This document shows, piece after piece, positions 19,292 through 36,128 of a stretch of 64,000 nt of DNA (the stretch's first letter is position 1; each line of letters begins with the position of its first letter). Origin of the DNA: Thermococcus sibiricus MM 739. GTDB taxonomy: Archaea > Methanobacteriota_B > Thermococci > Thermococcales > Thermococcaceae. Where the stretch lies: the NCBI RefSeq assembly GCF_000022545.1, contig NC_012883.1:1294276-1358275 (forward strand). The letters run 5' to 3'. The notes under the pieces are model-generated. The model searched no databases. It saw nothing but the letters and a program-made list of their open reading frames with translations, and had not been told where the DNA came from. The translations under genes and the position numbers were made by a program.

Positions 19292-19852
19292 CTAAAGCTC
19301 TCCTTTGAGAGCTTTTTCTCCAAGTTCAAAACCCTTTTTAAGGGCCTTTAAATTAAGATGTTCCGTTCCCTTGGGAATTGAATCAAGAACGGCCTTCTCT
19401 ATGGCCTCCTCACTTACTATTCCAGTCAGTCTAACTAAAAATCCAAGAGTGAGGATATTCATCGTTAGACTAAGTCCTGTACTCTCCTCAGCTAGCTTGG
19501 TGAAAGGGAGTACATAAACCTTAAAGTTCTTCTCAAGTTCTTCATTCCTATTGGGGATTAGATCCTTCTCTACTATAACTATGCCCCCCTCTTTAACTAG
19601 TGAGAGATATTTCTCATAGGCCTGCTGGGAGAGTAAAATAGCATAATCTGGGTTTAATGCCTTAGGGTAATCTATCAAATCGTCACTTATAATAACTTCA
19701 GCCTTACTTGCTCCTCCCCTTGATTCTGGGCCATATGACTGAGTTTGAACTGAATATAGACCCTCATAAACTGCAGCTGCTCTTCCCAGAATGACACTCG
19801 AAAGGATAACTCCTTGACCACCGAAGCCCCCTATAAGGACTTCCTTTCTCAT
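19292..19852 (-). CDS. 2-oxoacid:ferredoxin oxidoreductase gamma subunit (second set)
   Basis: Gamma subunit of a thiamine-diphosphate 2-oxoacid oxidoreductase that oxidatively decarboxylates a 2-oxoacid to acyl-CoA with reduced ferredoxin. The GGFGGQGVILSSVILG N-terminus, QTQSYGPESRGGASKAEV and the C-terminal GTEHLNLKALKKGFELG are family-specific. ATG at 19852 follows GGGGTGGGAAGA. Four-base overlap with the beta gene. Last gene of the seven-gene minus-strand operon. Confidence 0.88.
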   Translation of the reverse strand: MRKEVLIGGFGGQGVILSSVILGRAAAVYEGLYSVQTQSYGPESRGGASKAEVIISDDLIDYPKALNPDYAILLSQQAYEKYLSLVKEGGIVIVEKDLIPNRNEELEKNFKVYVLPFTKLAEESTGLSLTMNILTLGFLVRLTGIVSEEAIEKAVLDSIPKGTEHLNLKALKKGFELGEKALKGEL

Positions 19853-20694
19853 TCTTCCCACCCCATAGCCGTTTTAGCCCTTTTCTTGTATGCTTCATAT
19901 TCTTTAACCAAACTTGGTCTATCTCTGTCAATGAACTCCCCGATAATCACTTTGCCCTCGAGTTCTTCCGGAGACATTTCCTTTGCTTTATTTATGGGAA
20001 CTGAGAGTTTTTGATACCACTTTATCAATTCAGGAGCGGTTTTGAGCTTATTTCTTCTTCCGAAACTTATTGGGCATGGAGAGAGAAATTCAACCAAAGT
20101 AAAACCCTCCTTCTGGAGGGCTTTCTTTATACTGTTTATTCCTTGGAGATAATTGAAAACGCTCCATCTAGCTACATAGTTAGCACCGGCAACAACAGCA
20201 AGTTCTGCAATATCAAATGGATTTTCAAAACTTCCATATGGAGCTGTAGTTCCTCTGAGGCCCTTTGGAGTAGTTGGTGCTACTTGCCCACCCGTCATTC
20301 CATAAGTAAAGTTGTTAATTAAAATCACTGTAATGTCAAGATTCCTTCTTATAGCATGAATCAAATGATTTCCACCAATTGCGGCTGCATCACCATCTCC
20401 CATGAAAGCTATGACTTTAAGATCTGGATTTGCCATTTTTATTCCTGTCGCAAATGCCAAGGCCCTTCCATGAGTAGTGTGTAAGCCATCAAAGTTAACA
20501 TAACCTGGAACTCTTGATGAACATCCAATACCGCTTACCCACACCACTTCATCTTGATTTAATCCAAGATCATCAATAGCCCTGAGAGTGTATTGCAAAA
20601 CAGCACCTATACCACAACCAGGACAGAATATTGTGGGGAGCATGTCTTTTCGGAGATATTTATCCCTAATTTCATAGCTTGACTTTAGATACAT
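19849..20694 (-). CDS. 2-oxoacid:ferredoxin oxidoreductase beta subunit (second set)
   Basis: ThDP-binding subunit. The CPGCGIGAVLQYTLRAI motif supplies cluster ligands; GDGDAAAIGGNHLIHAIRRN is the ThDP/Mg-binding motif and NNFTYGMTGGQVAPTT follows; a third Cys lies in GIGCSSRVPGY. ATG at 20694, five bases past the alpha-gene stop, follows GAGGTGA. This set has no delta (ferredoxin) subunit of its own. Confidence 0.9.
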   Translation of the reverse strand: MYLKSSYEIRDKYLRKDMLPTIFCPGCGIGAVLQYTLRAIDDLGLNQDEVVWVSGIGCSSRVPGYVNFDGLHTTHGRALAFATGIKMANPDLKVIAFMGDGDAAAIGGNHLIHAIRRNLDITVILINNFTYGMTGGQVAPTTPKGLRGTTAPYGSFENPFDIAELAVVAGANYVARWSVFNYLQGINSIKKALQKEGFTLVEFLSPCPISFGRRNKLKTAPELIKWYQKLSVPINKAKEMSPEELEGKVIIGEFIDRDRPSLVKEYEAYKKRAKTAMGWEE

Positions 20695-20699
20695 TATTC

Positions 20700-21839
20700 T
20701 CACCTCAAATCATCCTTAATTCTCTCTATTATCTCTTTTGGAGTATGTACTTCGCCACCTATCTTGGAAATTAACTCCACCGGAGCTTTCCCGTTAGCAC
20801 CCTCTTTTACCATATGATACAACTGGCCTAAGTTCATCTCGACTACATAGATCTTCTCAACCCCCTCTGCTATTCTTTCTATGAGCTCAAAATCAAAGGG
20901 CCACACGACATTGAACTTAAGGAGTCCTGCTTTGATCCCTTTCTTACGTAACTCCTTAACAGCTCTCATTGCAGATCTTGCCACTATTCCAAAACTAATA
21001 ATGGCAATCTCAGCATCTTCAAGCTCATAAGCCTCATAATCAACGATATCTTTTTTATTCTTCTCTATTTTCTCGACTATCCGCTTTATCAGCTTCTCAT
21101 GAATCTCACTTTGCACTGTTTGAGGCCTCCCCTTTTCATCGTGTGTCAGGCCTGTAACATACGTATGATGGCCCTTTCCGAAGACAGGCATCGGAGGAAT
21201 TAAATCTCCATGTACATCTCCAAACGGATACTTTGCTTCCTCTTCATTTGCAGGAAGCTTCCTATAAATAAGTTCAAGCTCATCTGGATGTGGAGCATAA
21301 ACCCTTTCTCTCATGTGTCCTACTTCAGCATCGGTCAAGAGTATAACAGGAGTTCTGTACTTTTCAGCGAGATTAAATGCCTTTATTGTCATATCAAATG
21401 CCTCTTGAACTGTGGCAGGAGTCAACACTATCAAGCTGTGATCGCCATGCGTTCCCCATATCGCTTGCATTAGATCACCTTGAGCGGCCAGAGTTGGTTG
21501 GCCTGTAGAAGGGCCACTTCTCTGGACATTAACTAGAACCAAAGGAGTTTCAGTCATTATTGCATAACCAAGATTTTCCATCATTAAACTAAACCCCGGT
21601 CCAGAAGTGGCTGTCATTGATTTAGCACCTGTCCAAGAAGCTCCTATAACAGCTGCAATACTCCCAATCTCATCCTCCATCTGGATGTTCACTCCATCTA
21701 CAAGGGGCATGTAAACAGACATGGCCTCAAAAATCTCACTTGCAGGGGTTATTGGATATCCCGCATAAAATCTACATCCTGCTAAAATTGCGGCCCTTGC
21801 TATGGCTTCATCCCCTTGAATAAAATCTACCGCTCCCAC
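20700..21839 (-). CDS. 2-oxoacid:ferredoxin oxidoreductase alpha subunit (second set)
   Basis: The 379-aa alpha subunit carries FIQGDEAIARAAILAGCRFYAGYPITPASEI, EDEIGSIAAVIGASWTGAKSMTATSGPGFSLM and the C-terminal EMNLGQLYHMVKEGANG. The frame begins at a GTG (21839) 13 bases after the upstream gamma stop without a close ribosome binding site; AGGAGGG lies about 22 bases upstream. The order alpha-beta-gamma downstream of delta-alpha-beta-gamma matches the Pyrococcus furiosus arrangement where the first set is 2-oxoglutarate-specific and the second has no firmly assigned substrate. Confidence 0.88.
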   Translation of the reverse strand: MGAVDFIQGDEAIARAAILAGCRFYAGYPITPASEIFEAMSVYMPLVDGVNIQMEDEIGSIAAVIGASWTGAKSMTATSGPGFSLMMENLGYAIMTETPLVLVNVQRSGPSTGQPTLAAQGDLMQAIWGTHGDHSLIVLTPATVQEAFDMTIKAFNLAEKYRTPVILLTDAEVGHMRERVYAPHPDELELIYRKLPANEEEAKYPFGDVHGDLIPPMPVFGKGHHTYVTGLTHDEKGRPQTVQSEIHEKLIKRIVEKIEKNKKDIVDYEAYELEDAEIAIISFGIVARSAMRAVKELRKKGIKAGLLKFNVVWPFDFELIERIAEGVEKIYVVEMNLGQLYHMVKEGANGKAPVELISKIGGEVHTPKEIIERIKDDLR

Positions 21840-21852
21840 TGGAAATGGTATT

Positions 21853-22365
21853 TCATTTCATTCCCTCCTCATACCCTGTTCTAAATGCCTTTAGGTTAAT
21901 CTCCTCAGTTCCCTTTGGAACTCTTCTTCTTATTGCCTTTTCAACACTTTCTTTCTTCACAACATTTGTTTTTGCAACTAGATATCCAAGTGCAACCATG
22001 TTAACAGTTAAAGCCAAGCCTACTTTTTCCTCAGCAATTCTAGTGAATGGAGCACCTGTAAACTCTTTATCAGGTTGCACCAATCCTGTGTCAACTATTA
22101 AAAGGCCACCTTCTTTAAGTGACTCCTTTGTGGATTCATACCCAAGTTGGGCAAGGGCAAGTAGAACATCAGCCTTCGTCACAATTAAATCATAAATGGG
22201 ATCCTTTGAAATTATCAAATCAGCAATGGAATGACCTCCTCTACTTTGAGATCCATAATCTTGTGTCTGGACAACATTGAGGCCTTCTATAGCTGCTGCA
22301 TCCCCCAATATAACTCCTGCCAAAATTACCCCTTGACCACCAAATCCAGCCAGTCTAATCTGCAT
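21853..22365 (-). CDS. korG: 2-oxoglutarate:ferredoxin oxidoreductase gamma subunit
   Basis: LAGFGGQGVILAGVILGDAAA and VQTQDYGSQSRGGHSIADLI mark the gamma family; GTEEINLKAFRTGYEEG ends it. Tandem ATGs at 22368 and 22365; the second gives better spacing from GGGTGA. The start overlaps the end of korB. Fourth gene of the operon. Confidence 0.87.
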   Translation of the reverse strand: MQIRLAGFGGQGVILAGVILGDAAAIEGLNVVQTQDYGSQSRGGHSIADLIISKDPIYDLIVTKADVLLALAQLGYESTKESLKEGGLLIVDTGLVQPDKEFTGAPFTRIAEEKVGLALTVNMVALGYLVAKTNVVKKESVEKAIRRRVPKGTEEINLKAFRTGYEEGMK

Positions 22366-23218
22366 CATTATCACCCAACCCATAATGTTTGCTCACTTCC
22401 TCAATAAGAGAATTAAGTTCTTCTGTAAATTCTGGTTTTTCTCTATTCACTAATTCTCCAACCACAATTTTTCCTTGGAGCTCATCTGGAGACATGTTCC
22501 TTGCTTTACTTATGGGAATACTATTCTTCTGGAACCATCTAAGCATTTCTGTTGGTGTCTTCATCCTGTTTCTTCTTCCAAACTGCACGGGACATTGAGA
22601 AATAGCTTCAACCAATGCAAAACCCTTCACACTCAGGGCCCTTTTTATGCTTTCAATTAACGGATAAACATGGAAAGTTGTCCACCTTGCTACATAAGAT
22701 GCTCCAGCAGAGGCCACAGTCTCCGATATATTCAAAGGATGCTCAACATTCCTATATGGTGAGGTGGTTGTAATGGCACCAAATGGTGTTGTTGGGGCCA
22801 CTTGACCGCCAGTCATACCATAAATGAAATTATTGACAAGAATTACGGTAATATCAATGTTCCTTCTGGCCGCGTGGATTAAATGATTCCCACCAATTCC
22901 CGCCAGATCCCCATCTCCACTTATCACCACTACCTTCTTATCAGGTAAACCCACCTTAACTCCTGTTGCATAAGCTATTGCTCTTCCATGAGTCGTGTGC
23001 AAAGTGTCTGCCAAAAAGTAAGGAGAAGCTATCCATGCCGAACAACCAATTCCACTCACAACCACTAAATCCCGTGGATCAATTCCAAGTTGATCAATAA
23101 CATTTGCAAAGGCATTTAATACAGTTCCTCCTCCACATCCAGGACAAAGAGCAGTAGGAAGAGCCTCCTTTCGGAGATACTTTGCCATCTTATATTTGGT
23201 ATAAATTTCTTTTGCCAT
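22355..23218 (-). CDS. korB: 2-oxoglutarate:ferredoxin oxidoreductase beta subunit
   Basis: ThDP-binding subunit with CPGCGGGTVLNAFANVI, GIGCSAWIASPYF, the GDGDLAGIGGNHLIHAARRN ThDP motif and NNFIYGMTGGQVAPTT. ATG at 23218 follows AAAGGTGA (an in-frame GTG/ATG pair upstream lies inside that site). The 55-base gap to korA contains the promoter and 5' part of the candidate plus-strand C/D sRNA. Confidence 0.88.
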   Translation of the reverse strand: MAKEIYTKYKMAKYLRKEALPTALCPGCGGGTVLNAFANVIDQLGIDPRDLVVVSGIGCSAWIASPYFLADTLHTTHGRAIAYATGVKVGLPDKKVVVISGDGDLAGIGGNHLIHAARRNIDITVILVNNFIYGMTGGQVAPTTPFGAITTTSPYRNVEHPLNISETVASAGASYVARWTTFHVYPLIESIKRALSVKGFALVEAISQCPVQFGRRNRMKTPTEMLRWFQKNSIPISKARNMSPDELQGKIVVGELVNREKPEFTEELNSLIEEVSKHYGLGDNDAD

Positions 23219-23258
23219 CCGCATCACCTTTAAATATTCTCAACACCAACCATCAATC

Positions 23259-23312
23259 AGCGATGATGAATATCTAATCCGCCGAACGGTGACGAGAACG
23301 CTCGGCTGAGCT
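23259..23312 (+). ncRNA. Candidate box C/D guide sRNA, antisense to the korA 3' end
   Basis: Boxes in canonical order: C (GATGATGA, 23262-23269), D' variant CCGA (23282-23285), C' variant GTGACGA (23289-23295) and D CTGA (23306-23309), closed by a terminal stem AGC (23259-23261)/GCT (23310-23312). Guide spacings of 12 and 10 nt are normal for archaeal sRNAs. The first guide, TATCTAATCCG, is complementary to the universally conserved 16S rRNA CGGATTAGATA (790 loop); the D'+5 rule would then point to U788 (E. coli numbering). A TATA-like TTTAAATATT (23230-23239) lies ~25 bases before the predicted 5' end. The second guide has no target I can name. Confidence 0.65.
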
Positions 23313-24491
23313 TTCTATCTCTTTTAAAATTTCTTCTACTGTTAATGGCACACCACCAATCTTGTTCACACCAATAACTGGAACTTCATCTCTCACAAAG
23401 CGCTGTACTTCAAGTATCACTTGCCCAAGGTTCATCTCTGGTACAATGATCAGTTGAACATTTTTAGAAAGCTCTTTAATTCTCTCTCCGGGGAATGGGT
23501 GAACAGTTTTTGGGACAAAAAGGCCTACTTTTATCCCCTTCTTTCTAGCCTTCATCACCGCTCCAAGAGAAGGTCTTGCACTAACTCCCCAGCTTACAAG
23601 CAGAATTTCAGCGTCTTCAACATAGTATTCCTCCCACTTTTGAATCTCGGCCTTATGTATTTCTATTTTCTTATGAAGCCTTCTTACTAAGCGGTCGTGA
23701 ACTTCAGGAGTGTAAACATCCCTGAGACCATTCTCTTTATGAGTTGACCCTGTAACGTGAGTAAAGTAACCATGGCCAAAAAGTGGCATCGGAGGAATTA
23801 AATCTCCATGTACATCTCCAAAAGGATACTTTGCTTCTTCATCACTAGTAGGAAGTTTTCTGTAGACTATCTCCACTTCTTCTGGGTCGGGTATATTTAT
23901 TTGTTCCCTTGTATGTCCTATAATCCCATCAGCAAGAACAAGGACTGGAATTCTAAACTTCTCACTCAGGTTGAAGGCCCTTATTGTTTCCCAGAAACTG
24001 TCTTCCACACTTGTTGGGGAGATAGCTATTATTGGGTGGTCACCATGCGTCCCCCATCTTGCCTGGAAAAAGTCCCCTTGGGCTCCTTTAGTAGCTTGGC
24101 CTGTAGAAGGGCCACTTCTCTGGACATCTACTAAAACCAAGGGGGTCTCAGTGAAGATAGCATAGCCGAGGTTTTCCTGCATTAAACTAAACCCCGGTCC
24201 AGAAGTGGCTGTCATGCTCTTAAACCCTGTCCAGGAAGCCCCTACAACAGCTGCAATACTCCCAATCTCATCCTCCATCTGAATATAATAACCCTTAAGT
24301 TTCGGGAGTTCTCTTGCCATTGTTTCAGCAATTTCACTTGCAGGCGTTATTGGGTATCCCGCATAAAATCTACATCCTGCAAAAAGGGCGCCATAAGCTA
24401 TGGCCTCATCCCCCTGCATGAAGTAGTTCCCCTTAGGATACATCTTTTTTAAGAGTCTTATCTGTTCAGGCTCATCTCCACGGATTATCAT
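23274..24491 (-). CDS. korA: 2-oxoglutarate:ferredoxin oxidoreductase alpha subunit
   Basis: The 405-aa alpha subunit has FMQGDEAIAYGALFAGCRFYAGYPITPASEI, EDEIGSIAAVVGASWTG and SGPGFSLMQENLGYAIFTETPL. ATG at 24491 follows GTGGTGATATC. It shares three exact 32-38-bp tracts with the second alpha gene. Its last residues (SSAERSRHRSAD) are atypical, and this stretch is exactly where the opposite strand carries the candidate C/D sRNA, so the C-terminal tail may be shaped by RNA constraint. Confidence 0.88.
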   Translation of the reverse strand: MIIRGDEPEQIRLLKKMYPKGNYFMQGDEAIAYGALFAGCRFYAGYPITPASEIAETMARELPKLKGYYIQMEDEIGSIAAVVGASWTGFKSMTATSGPGFSLMQENLGYAIFTETPLVLVDVQRSGPSTGQATKGAQGDFFQARWGTHGDHPIIAISPTSVEDSFWETIRAFNLSEKFRIPVLVLADGIIGHTREQINIPDPEEVEIVYRKLPTSDEEAKYPFGDVHGDLIPPMPLFGHGYFTHVTGSTHKENGLRDVYTPEVHDRLVRRLHKKIEIHKAEIQKWEEYYVEDAEILLVSWGVSARPSLGAVMKARKKGIKVGLFVPKTVHPFPGERIKELSKNVQLIIVPEMNLGQVILEVQRFVRDEVPVIGVNKIGGVPLTVEEILKEIESSAERSRHRSAD

Positions 24492-24497
24492 GAGATA

Positions 24498-24755
24498 TCA
24501 CCACTTAACAGCTATTGCAAAGTCTGGACATAGGAGTTCACAGAGCTTGCACTTCACGCACTTATCTGCATTTACCGGAATCGGATAATGTACACCCTTT
24601 TCACTAAGTTCTTTGCTCCACTCAAATACTTTTCTTGGACAGAGTTCTAAGCAGATGCCACATCCCTTACACAGAAAGGTGTCTACACTAATTTCAACCG
24701 CTTCTGTTTTCCCAATAGAGAGATATCCATCCTTTTTAACTTCGACATTTGTCAT
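24498..24755 (-). CDS. korD: 2-oxoglutarate:ferredoxin oxidoreductase delta (ferredoxin-like) subunit
   Basis: An 85-aa polyferredoxin subunit with two 4Fe-4S sites, CKGCGICLELCPRKVF and CVKCKLCELLCPDFAI, that passes electrons to ferredoxin. ATG at 24755 follows GGGTGA; upstream in-frame starts up to 24836 would add an unlikely Phe/Cys-rich leader. It is the first gene of the operon and the only delta subunit for both alpha-beta-gamma sets. Confidence 0.88.
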   Translation of the reverse strand: MTNVEVKKDGYLSIGKTEAVEISVDTFLCKGCGICLELCPRKVFEWSKELSEKGVHYPIPVNADKCVKCKLCELLCPDFAIAVKW

Positions 24756-24782
24756 AAGCATCACCCACGATCCACTAAACTT

Positions 24783-24820
24783 GTTTACGTATGTAAAACA
24801 TTTAAAGTTTTCGAAAATTT
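24783..24820 (-). promoter_or_regulatory. kor operon promoter with adjacent inverted repeat
   Basis: On the minus strand CGAAAACTTTAAATG (BRE/TATA, ~24800-24813) is followed by an inverted repeat TTTAC-GTAT-GTAAA (24784-24797, plus strand), placed around the expected transcription start. The repeat is a candidate repressor site for the whole operon. No factor can be named. Confidence 0.45.
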
Positions 24821-24967
24821 TCTCACCTATACTCATGCATAGAGAATGGGTTGGCTTTTAGTGCCTGAAAAGTCAACACATATCGCCTTAATGTACACAA
24901 TTCATCATCAGATGCTCTATTTAATATTGAAATTTAAATGAGTAGGGTTTATGTTCATAAAGGAAGA

Positions 24968-27480: not shown

Positions 27481-27558
27481 TGGCGCCCGGGTCGGGATTT
27501 GAACCCGAGTCGCGGGAGTGACAGTCCCGCATGATGGGCCTGGCTACACCACCCGGGC
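27481..27558 (-). tRNA. tRNA-Asp (GUC)
   Basis: Acceptor GCCCGGG/CCCGGGC, discriminator G and encoded CCA (27483-27481). Anticodon stem CGGGA/TCCCG with loop CTGTCAC, anticodon GTC. It lies eight bases downstream of the 5S rRNA, as in other Thermococcales, and is presumably processed from the same transcript. Confidence 0.95.
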
Positions 27559-27565
27559 ATTTGAG

Positions 27566-27688
27566 TGGCCGGCGGCGTCCCCGGTTTCCCGCCCCCTCTC
27601 GGAGGGCAGTACCGCCGGGATCGCTGGCGGGCTTAACTTCCGGGGTCGAAACGAGTCCGGGTGTGACCCCGCCGCTATGACCGCCGTA
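27566..27688 (-). rRNA. rrf: 5S ribosomal RNA
   Basis: Begins TACGGCGGTCATAGCGGCGG and contains the archaeal 5S hallmarks CCGGAAGTTAAGCCCGCCAG and GTACTGCCCTCCGAGAGGG; the ends pair (GGCGGT... with ...GCCGCC). GC-rich island in AT-rich DNA. A TATA box (TTTATAAAC, minus strand, ~27712-27720) lies ~25 bases upstream. End positions are accurate to a few bases. Confidence 0.93.
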
Positions 27689-34506: not shown

Positions 34507-36128
34507 GTTCCAATAAGACTTTAAAAGAATTGAAAGTTACGTAGTTTTTGAGCCGTAGCAACTCTGTCCTTTGTTCCAATAAGACTTTAAAAGAATTGAA
34601 AGGTTTGTTTGCTTTCATCTTCGTAAAAACTTATGTAGTTCCAATAAGACTTTAAAAGAATTGAAAGATTATAACGAAAAAGTATACAGACGTCTTTGTC
34701 GAGCGTTCCAATAAGACTTTAAAAGAATTGAAAGTTTCGCAAACTTCTTCTTATACAGTACCTGCCACCGCGTTCCAATAAGACTTTAAAAGAATTGAAA
34801 GACAAATGAAACAACTTTCACTTGAAAAGATATTACTGTTCCAATAAGACTTTAAAAGAATTGAAAGTGGTAGTAATACAAGTACTTTTTATACGTTAAT
34901 GCTGTTCCAATAAGACTTTAAAAGAATTGAAAGTTAATGAACCTGATAAGTATTCGTCTAATACGTGTGTAAATAGGTTCCAATAAGACTTTAAAAGAAT
35001 TGAAAGATGTACATCCAACTCCCCTGACACATCCTCATACCTGTTCCAATAAGACTTTAAAAGAATTGAAAGATGCTTTCTCTTTGTGTCGGTGGTAGTG
35101 AAGTAATCGTTCCAATAAGACTTTAAAAGAATTGAAAGTTATAAAGGGAAATGCGTTAAACATTAATGCCCCTCGTTCCAATAAGACTTTAAAAGAATTG
35201 AAAGCATGTTACTATCACTCAACGTAAACCAGAGTAATACGTTCCAATAAGACTTTAAAAGAATTGAAAGCCGTGTATGCTAAAATCTCTTTCATAACTT
35301 TTTTGAAGTTCCAATAAGACTTTAAAAGAATTGAAAGAGAGGTCATTATAGAATCCCCAAGGAGGGAGTGGAGAGTTCCAATAAGACTTTAAAAGAATTG
35401 AAAGGAAAGTCGTAGAGTGGAGGAATGGAAATGGCGCGGATGGTTCCAATAAGACTTTAAAAGAATTGAAAGCTGTTCTTGAGGTATGCTTCAAACTCTT
35501 CAAGTGTTAGTTCCAATAAGACTTTAAAAGAATTGAAAGTCAAATCAGAGCACTAGGGTGACAAGAAAAAATAGTGTTCCAATAAGACTTTAAAAGAATT
35601 GAAAGCAAAAACCTCTTTTTGGTTTTCTCCTCCTTATCATCAGTTCCAATAAGACTTTAAAAGAATTGAAAGTCTTAATTGCTCTTTGTTCTGCTTCTAC
35701 CATCTTTTCGTTCCAATAAGACTTTAAAAGAATTGAAAGTGGGGTCTCCCAATACCACCATGCCAGCGGTGTGTAGTTCCAATAAGACTTTAAAAGAATT
35801 GAAAGACAAGTCCTACAACTGGTATGTTGTTCCAAATTGTCGTTCCAATAAGACTTTAAAAGAATTGAAAGCTATTATACTACGCAATAGACTTCCTAGG
35901 CAGGGAGTTCCAATAAGACTTTAAAAGAATTGAAAGCAGGGTGAGGAATGATATCGATTTAGAGGCAGGCTTGGTTCCAATAAGACTTTAAAAGAATTGA
36001 AAGCATGGATGGTGGAAAATGAAGTGCCCGCGGCGGCGGAGTTCCAATAAGACTTTAAAAGAATTGAAAGTGACCACGGCGGTGCTTAAGCTTTCAAGGG
36101 TTATGCGGTTCCAATAAGACTTTAAAAG
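34507..36128 (+). CRISPR. CRISPR array, 25 repeats and 24 spacers
   Basis: A 30-bp repeat beginning GTTCCAATAAGACTTTAAAA and ending GAATTGAAAG, the Thermococcales repeat family. I count 24 identical copies (34507 to 36070) and a terminal copy at 36108 that matches only the first 21 bases. Spacers are 35-38 bp, except spacer 7 (34934-34976) at 43 bp. The repeat is not perfectly palindromic, so crRNAs carry an 8-nt ATTGAAAG tag after Cas6 cleavage, as known in Pyrococcus. The transcribed strand is inferred from the leader side and from this tag. Short ORFs inside the array are artefacts. Confidence 0.98.

Follow-up and report, generated by a model that had tools for sequence, protein, structure and literature searches.

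The window, i.e. the whole 64-kb stretch of DNA analysed here, carries on its minus strand (19849-24836) two tandem 2-oxoacid:ferredoxin oxidoreductase alpha/beta sets, accompanied by a gamma-like and a ferredoxin-like gene; in relatives we also observed an additional alpha gene that shares 54-58% identity with korA. On the opposite strand a predicted C/D box sRNA gene overlaps the end of korA, and the features of this locus are as follows:

22355-23227, minus strand: korB, beta subunit, with its start downstream of the sRNA locus
23229-23236, plus strand: TATA-like box TTTAAATA, centred ~26 nt before the predicted 5' end of the sRNA
23259-23312, plus strand: C/D box sRNA, 54 nt, terminal stem A259-T312, G260-C311, C261-G310
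23259-23261, plus strand: 5' arm of the stem, (A)GC
23263-23269, plus strand: box C, ATGATGA (consensus RUGAUGA)
23270-23281, plus strand: D' guide ATATCTAATCCG, 12 nt
23282-23285, plus strand: box D', CCGA (one mismatch to CUGA)
23289-23295, plus strand: box C', GTGACGA (one mismatch to RUGAUGA)
23296-23305, plus strand: D guide GAACGCTCGG, 10 nt
23306-23309, plus strand: box D, CTGA
23310-23312, plus strand: 3' arm of the stem, GC(T)
23274-24491, minus strand: korA, 2-oxoacid:acceptor (ferredoxin) oxidoreductase alpha subunit (NF006412, E = 5.5e-178)

The C/D box elements at 23259-23312 on the plus strand are confirmed. The first-pass annotation had described four boxes in order, a closing stem and guides of 12 and 10 nt, all of which can be read directly from the plus strand, the stem being just 2-3 bp long (GC/GC plus A-U). 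Its span of 23230-23312 does enclose the sRNA and has to be narrowed, as the sRNA proper occupies 23259-23312 and the start at 23230 includes the promoter region. The D'-C' spacer measures 3 nt, as short as the C/D class requires, and in the comparison of 14 genomes box C' reads ATGACGA in two. The fold stability of the sRNA alone is nothing unusual (z = -0.53); C/D sRNAs are known by their boxes, so that ordinary fold stability and a short stem are to be expected.

Class membership and the guide sequences

To what extent such an arrangement arises by chance was gauged by scanning the 64-kb window and, as a control, 60 order-1 Markov shuffles of it. The strict C/D descriptor gave a single match in the window, the sRNA itself, and none in the shuffled windows, and the relaxed descriptor likewise found the sRNA site alone, again with none in the 60 shuffles. 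Comparison with Rfam revealed matches to 18 archaeal C/D families, most of them end to end (e.g. sR1, sR14, sR39, snoPyro_CD and sR9). The best is sR1 (E = 1.1e-5, 28.5 bits vs a gathering score of 45), and snoPyro_CD, whose terminal-stem model aligns end to end, scores 25.3 bits against a gathering score of 45. None of the Rfam archaeal C/D models reached its gathering threshold on the sRNA, and we therefore place it within the class and outside every Rfam family compared. Across the genome, a single contig of 1,845,800 bp, snoPyro_CD yields 17 matches at E <= 1 with the sRNA ranking thirteenth, in a loose list in which bacterial control genomes find matches too. The genome also contains the genes for fibrillarin and Nop5, adjacent to each other, and L7Ae is described as universal in archaea (PMC5539422). 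Terminal and internal boxes, a guide, a stem, conservation and the fibrillarin/Nop5 genes are thus all found, and the Rfam scores, the descriptor scan, ortholog conservation and the fibrillarin and Nop5 genes together support the C/D identity of the predicted sRNA, which would be bound by L7Ae, Nop5 and fibrillarin. Elsewhere in the window we observed a CRISPR array with 24 copies of a 30-nt repeat (34507-36070; Rfam CRISPR-DR6, equal scores).

The D' guide had been credited with an 11-nt complement to 16S rRNA, and this complement is indeed there: positions 23271-23281 form 11/11 Watson-Crick pairs with 16S CGGATTAGATA (local 739-749), a match equalled by 0/150 shuffled guides, and the 11 complementary nucleotides are invariant in 14 genomes. 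The target falls in the conserved 790-loop region of 16S, and position D'+5 lies opposite a U at local position 743, which is taken, by reference to the GGATTAGATACCC site, to be U788 in E. coli numbering. The D'+5 rule therefore predicts that the guide directs Um788 in 16S, the same site that the first-pass annotation had named. No earlier report of an archaeal Um788 came up in a search of the literature. The 16S-23S operon is located at genome position 113592-118364, and a 5S rRNA followed by tRNA-Asp lies separately from it, at 27481-27688 of the window.

Comparison of the D guide with 16S, 23S, 5S and 33 tRNAs brought out no target above chance. Its best rRNA match is in 23S (local 1321-1330, where the mark would fall at G1325), with a mismatch in the pairing beside box D, and since 20/150 shuffled guides match rRNA equally well, the D guide is left without a confident target, a point on which the first-pass annotation is silent. 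A pairing of the D guide with 16S near the D' target (local 788) was rejected, as it comprises merely 7 bp, 3 of them G-U. The D guide is nevertheless conserved as strongly as the D' guide, which lends something to the explanation that the C/D sRNA is real and its 16S match is incidental or a chaperone contact, the functional guide being aimed elsewhere or being the D guide; orphan guides have been described and chaperone-like guide contacts proposed (PMC7994747, PMC4644070). We regard this explanation as unlikely, given that the D' pairing is complete in the exact D' register, is unmatched by shuffled guides, lies in the functional core of 16S and does not vary among the 14 genomes.

Conservation of the sRNA and the end of korA

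Orthologs of the sRNA were sought by DNA search, pattern search and a covariance model, and all three agree: they are present in 12/13 genomes of its own genus and in 2/3 of a second genus, with scores of 82-89 bits, anything else scoring at most 32.8 bits. In all 14 carriers the location is the korA end. Both non-carrier genomes of the two genera show the paralogous korA alone in the assembly, and because the korA copy at issue is missing from the same assemblies as the sRNA, an assembly gap probably accounts for the absence. The boxes are kept in these relatives, and among the 14 genomes 45/54 columns of the sRNA are invariant, against a background of 2/21 in the upstream spacer and 31/57 in the adjacent korA stretch; the conserved block runs on for 15 nt after the korA stop codon.

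An sRNA ortholog with the same guide was found in none of the genera g3-g6 of Thermococcaceae. The sub-threshold model matches in other genera (at most 32.8 bits), inspected where the simple pattern fitted, were rejected as other C/D-like RNAs with different guides. In one further genome (G059) a ATCTAATCCGCCGA motif was rejected as not being a C/D sRNA, boxes C, C' and D all being missing nearby. The D'-C' block GCCGAACGGTGACGA recurs in other Thermococcaceae C/D sRNA candidates (e.g. L063, L065, L074). As a separate observation, four loci (L063, L065, L073 and L074) contain a different C/D sRNA with the same D'-C' block, GGC(C/T)GAACGGTGACGA, which is a possible source or parallel of the korA-end sRNA.

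The upstream TATA claimed in the first-pass annotation is present as TTTAAATA, 20-22 nt upstream of the sRNA in 13/14 genomes, with a divergent intervening spacer; the remaining genome (G001) has a weaker TATA-like version, TTTTTAAC. Across genomes the centre of the box lies about 24-26 nt from the sRNA 5' end, the spacing expected of an archaeal TATA box. Conservation of the box is partly confounded, because the adjoining AAAGGTGATG, on the other strand, resembles the korB ribosome-binding site. In loci L002-L015 we also observed a conserved TATTTAAAGGTGATG motif upstream of korB, the opposite strand of which contains the sRNA TATA-like box, and one set of bases may thus serve both signals. 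Scans for bacterial promoters and terminators have no application to archaea. Transcription of the sRNA, antisense to the korA end, is probably driven by its own TATA box.

The antisense overlap reported earlier is evident at the nucleotide level: the last 12 korA codons (SSAERSRHRSAD) and the stop run antisense through the sRNA, and since the stop TAG (complement of 23274-23276) lies within the D' guide, 39 nt of the sRNA are antisense to korA. By its position the sRNA is complementary over all 54 nt to the mRNA of korAB, and T. kodakarensis has many antisense transcripts at the ends of genes (PMC4247193), so the sRNA might be seen chiefly as an antisense regulator acting on korA-korB expression in the kor operon. 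Antisense pairing, however, requires neither boxes C, D', C' and D nor complementarity to 16S, and would leave their invariance unexplained, and for C/D genes that overlap 3' ends, reporter tests of sense overlap gave neutral or slight effects on transcription (Tripp 2017, as reported in PMC7994747); we hold this explanation to be highly improbable.

Among 12 same-genus sequences, codons with an invariant amino acid vary synonymously in only 1/11 cases in the tail, as opposed to 158/183 in the korA body (Fisher p = 1.1e-7). The sole amino-acid difference in the tail within the genus, S to P in one sequence (L007), corresponds to an A-to-G substitution within the D guide. KorA of the other four genera ends, in the loci read, with ...EEILREIRGV(A), ~12 residues earlier, and korB begins at the korA stop or only a few bases from it, overlapping or abutting it; six korA-korB junctions from these genera were scanned and gave no C/D match. 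That the conservation stems from selection on the protein tail, with the boxes a coincidence, as the near-invariance of the tail residues wherever the tail is present might suggest, is already contradicted and virtually untenable, since it is only in the tail that synonymous sites are frozen, the conserved block continues past the stop codon, other Thermococcaceae do without the tail and the C/D boxes match Rfam models. The frozen synonymous sites, the conservation after the stop and the joint absence of tail and sRNA instead support the proposal, already made in the first-pass annotation, that selection on the RNA shaped the KorA end. In four genera a shorter korA meets korB directly, so a single event of insertion or birth best explains the tail; in the korA tree the sRNA carriers group together (85/93), a moderate clade support for a single origin, and the data are compatible with the sRNA having been gained once.

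Proposed origin and comparison with known C/D sRNAs

We consider it very likely that all parts of the following reading hold jointly, namely that the locus is a functional C/D sRNA gene whose D' guide is directed to 16S U788, and that it was gained once and fixed the KorA tail. A single birth or insertion in the ancestor of two Thermococcaceae genera would have placed the sRNA gene between korA and korB; korA would then have extended antisense into it as far as the TAG within the D' guide, and the KorA tail of ~12 residues would have been fixed through selection on the RNA. In the present-day cell, the D' guide would pair with the 16S 790-loop region, and fibrillarin would 2'-O-methylate U788. 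A bolder version, in which the one gain of this lineage-restricted sRNA both brought a new methyl mark to the 790 loop and broke the tight korA-korB junction, the sRNA possibly also acting antisense on korAB, appears unlikely to us; if true, one insertion would have changed the ribosome and an operon together.

The significance of the locus lies in an uncatalogued guide RNA with a predicted target at a universally conserved ribosomal site, and in what may be a clean example of a non-coding RNA that dictates codon choice in an overlapping enzyme gene and provides it with an extra C-terminal tail. Close relatives without the RNA keep the alternative korA end, which allows comparison.

In T. kodakarensis 54 C/D snoRNAs have been verified by dRNA-seq, and of 17 antisense snoRNAs 16 run across a gene 3' end (PMC4247193); overlap with ORF ends is presented as general among C/D sRNA genes (PMC7994747). 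For these reasons the layout of the sRNA is ordinary, a point that the first-pass annotation does not mention. We compared the korA-end sRNA with Pyrococcus/Thermococcus sRNAs (sR1, RF01152; sR14, RF01145; sR9, RF01312; snoPyro_CD, RF00095). It resembles the C/D sRNAs of these genera in its size range (50-60 nt), its four boxes, terminal stem, guides of 10-12 nt and short D'-C' loop, and differs from sR1, sR14, sR9 and snoPyro_CD in having its own guide sequences and scores below the gathering score of each family. With the antisense snoRNAs of T. kodakarensis (PMC4247193) it shares the antisense position across the 3' end of the sense gene; unlike that set, it has a guide for which no ortholog was found in genera g3-g6, and the genus of T. 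kodakarensis seems to be without this sRNA. With the C/D sRNAs of Tripp 2017, as reviewed in PMC7994747, it shares a gene's stop codon within the sRNA; in those RNAs the stop belongs to the upstream gene and falls mostly in box C, whereas in the korA-end sRNA it is an antisense stop in the D' guide. The class and the layout are thus already known, and what is new is the particular guide and the clear before/after comparison of the korA end.
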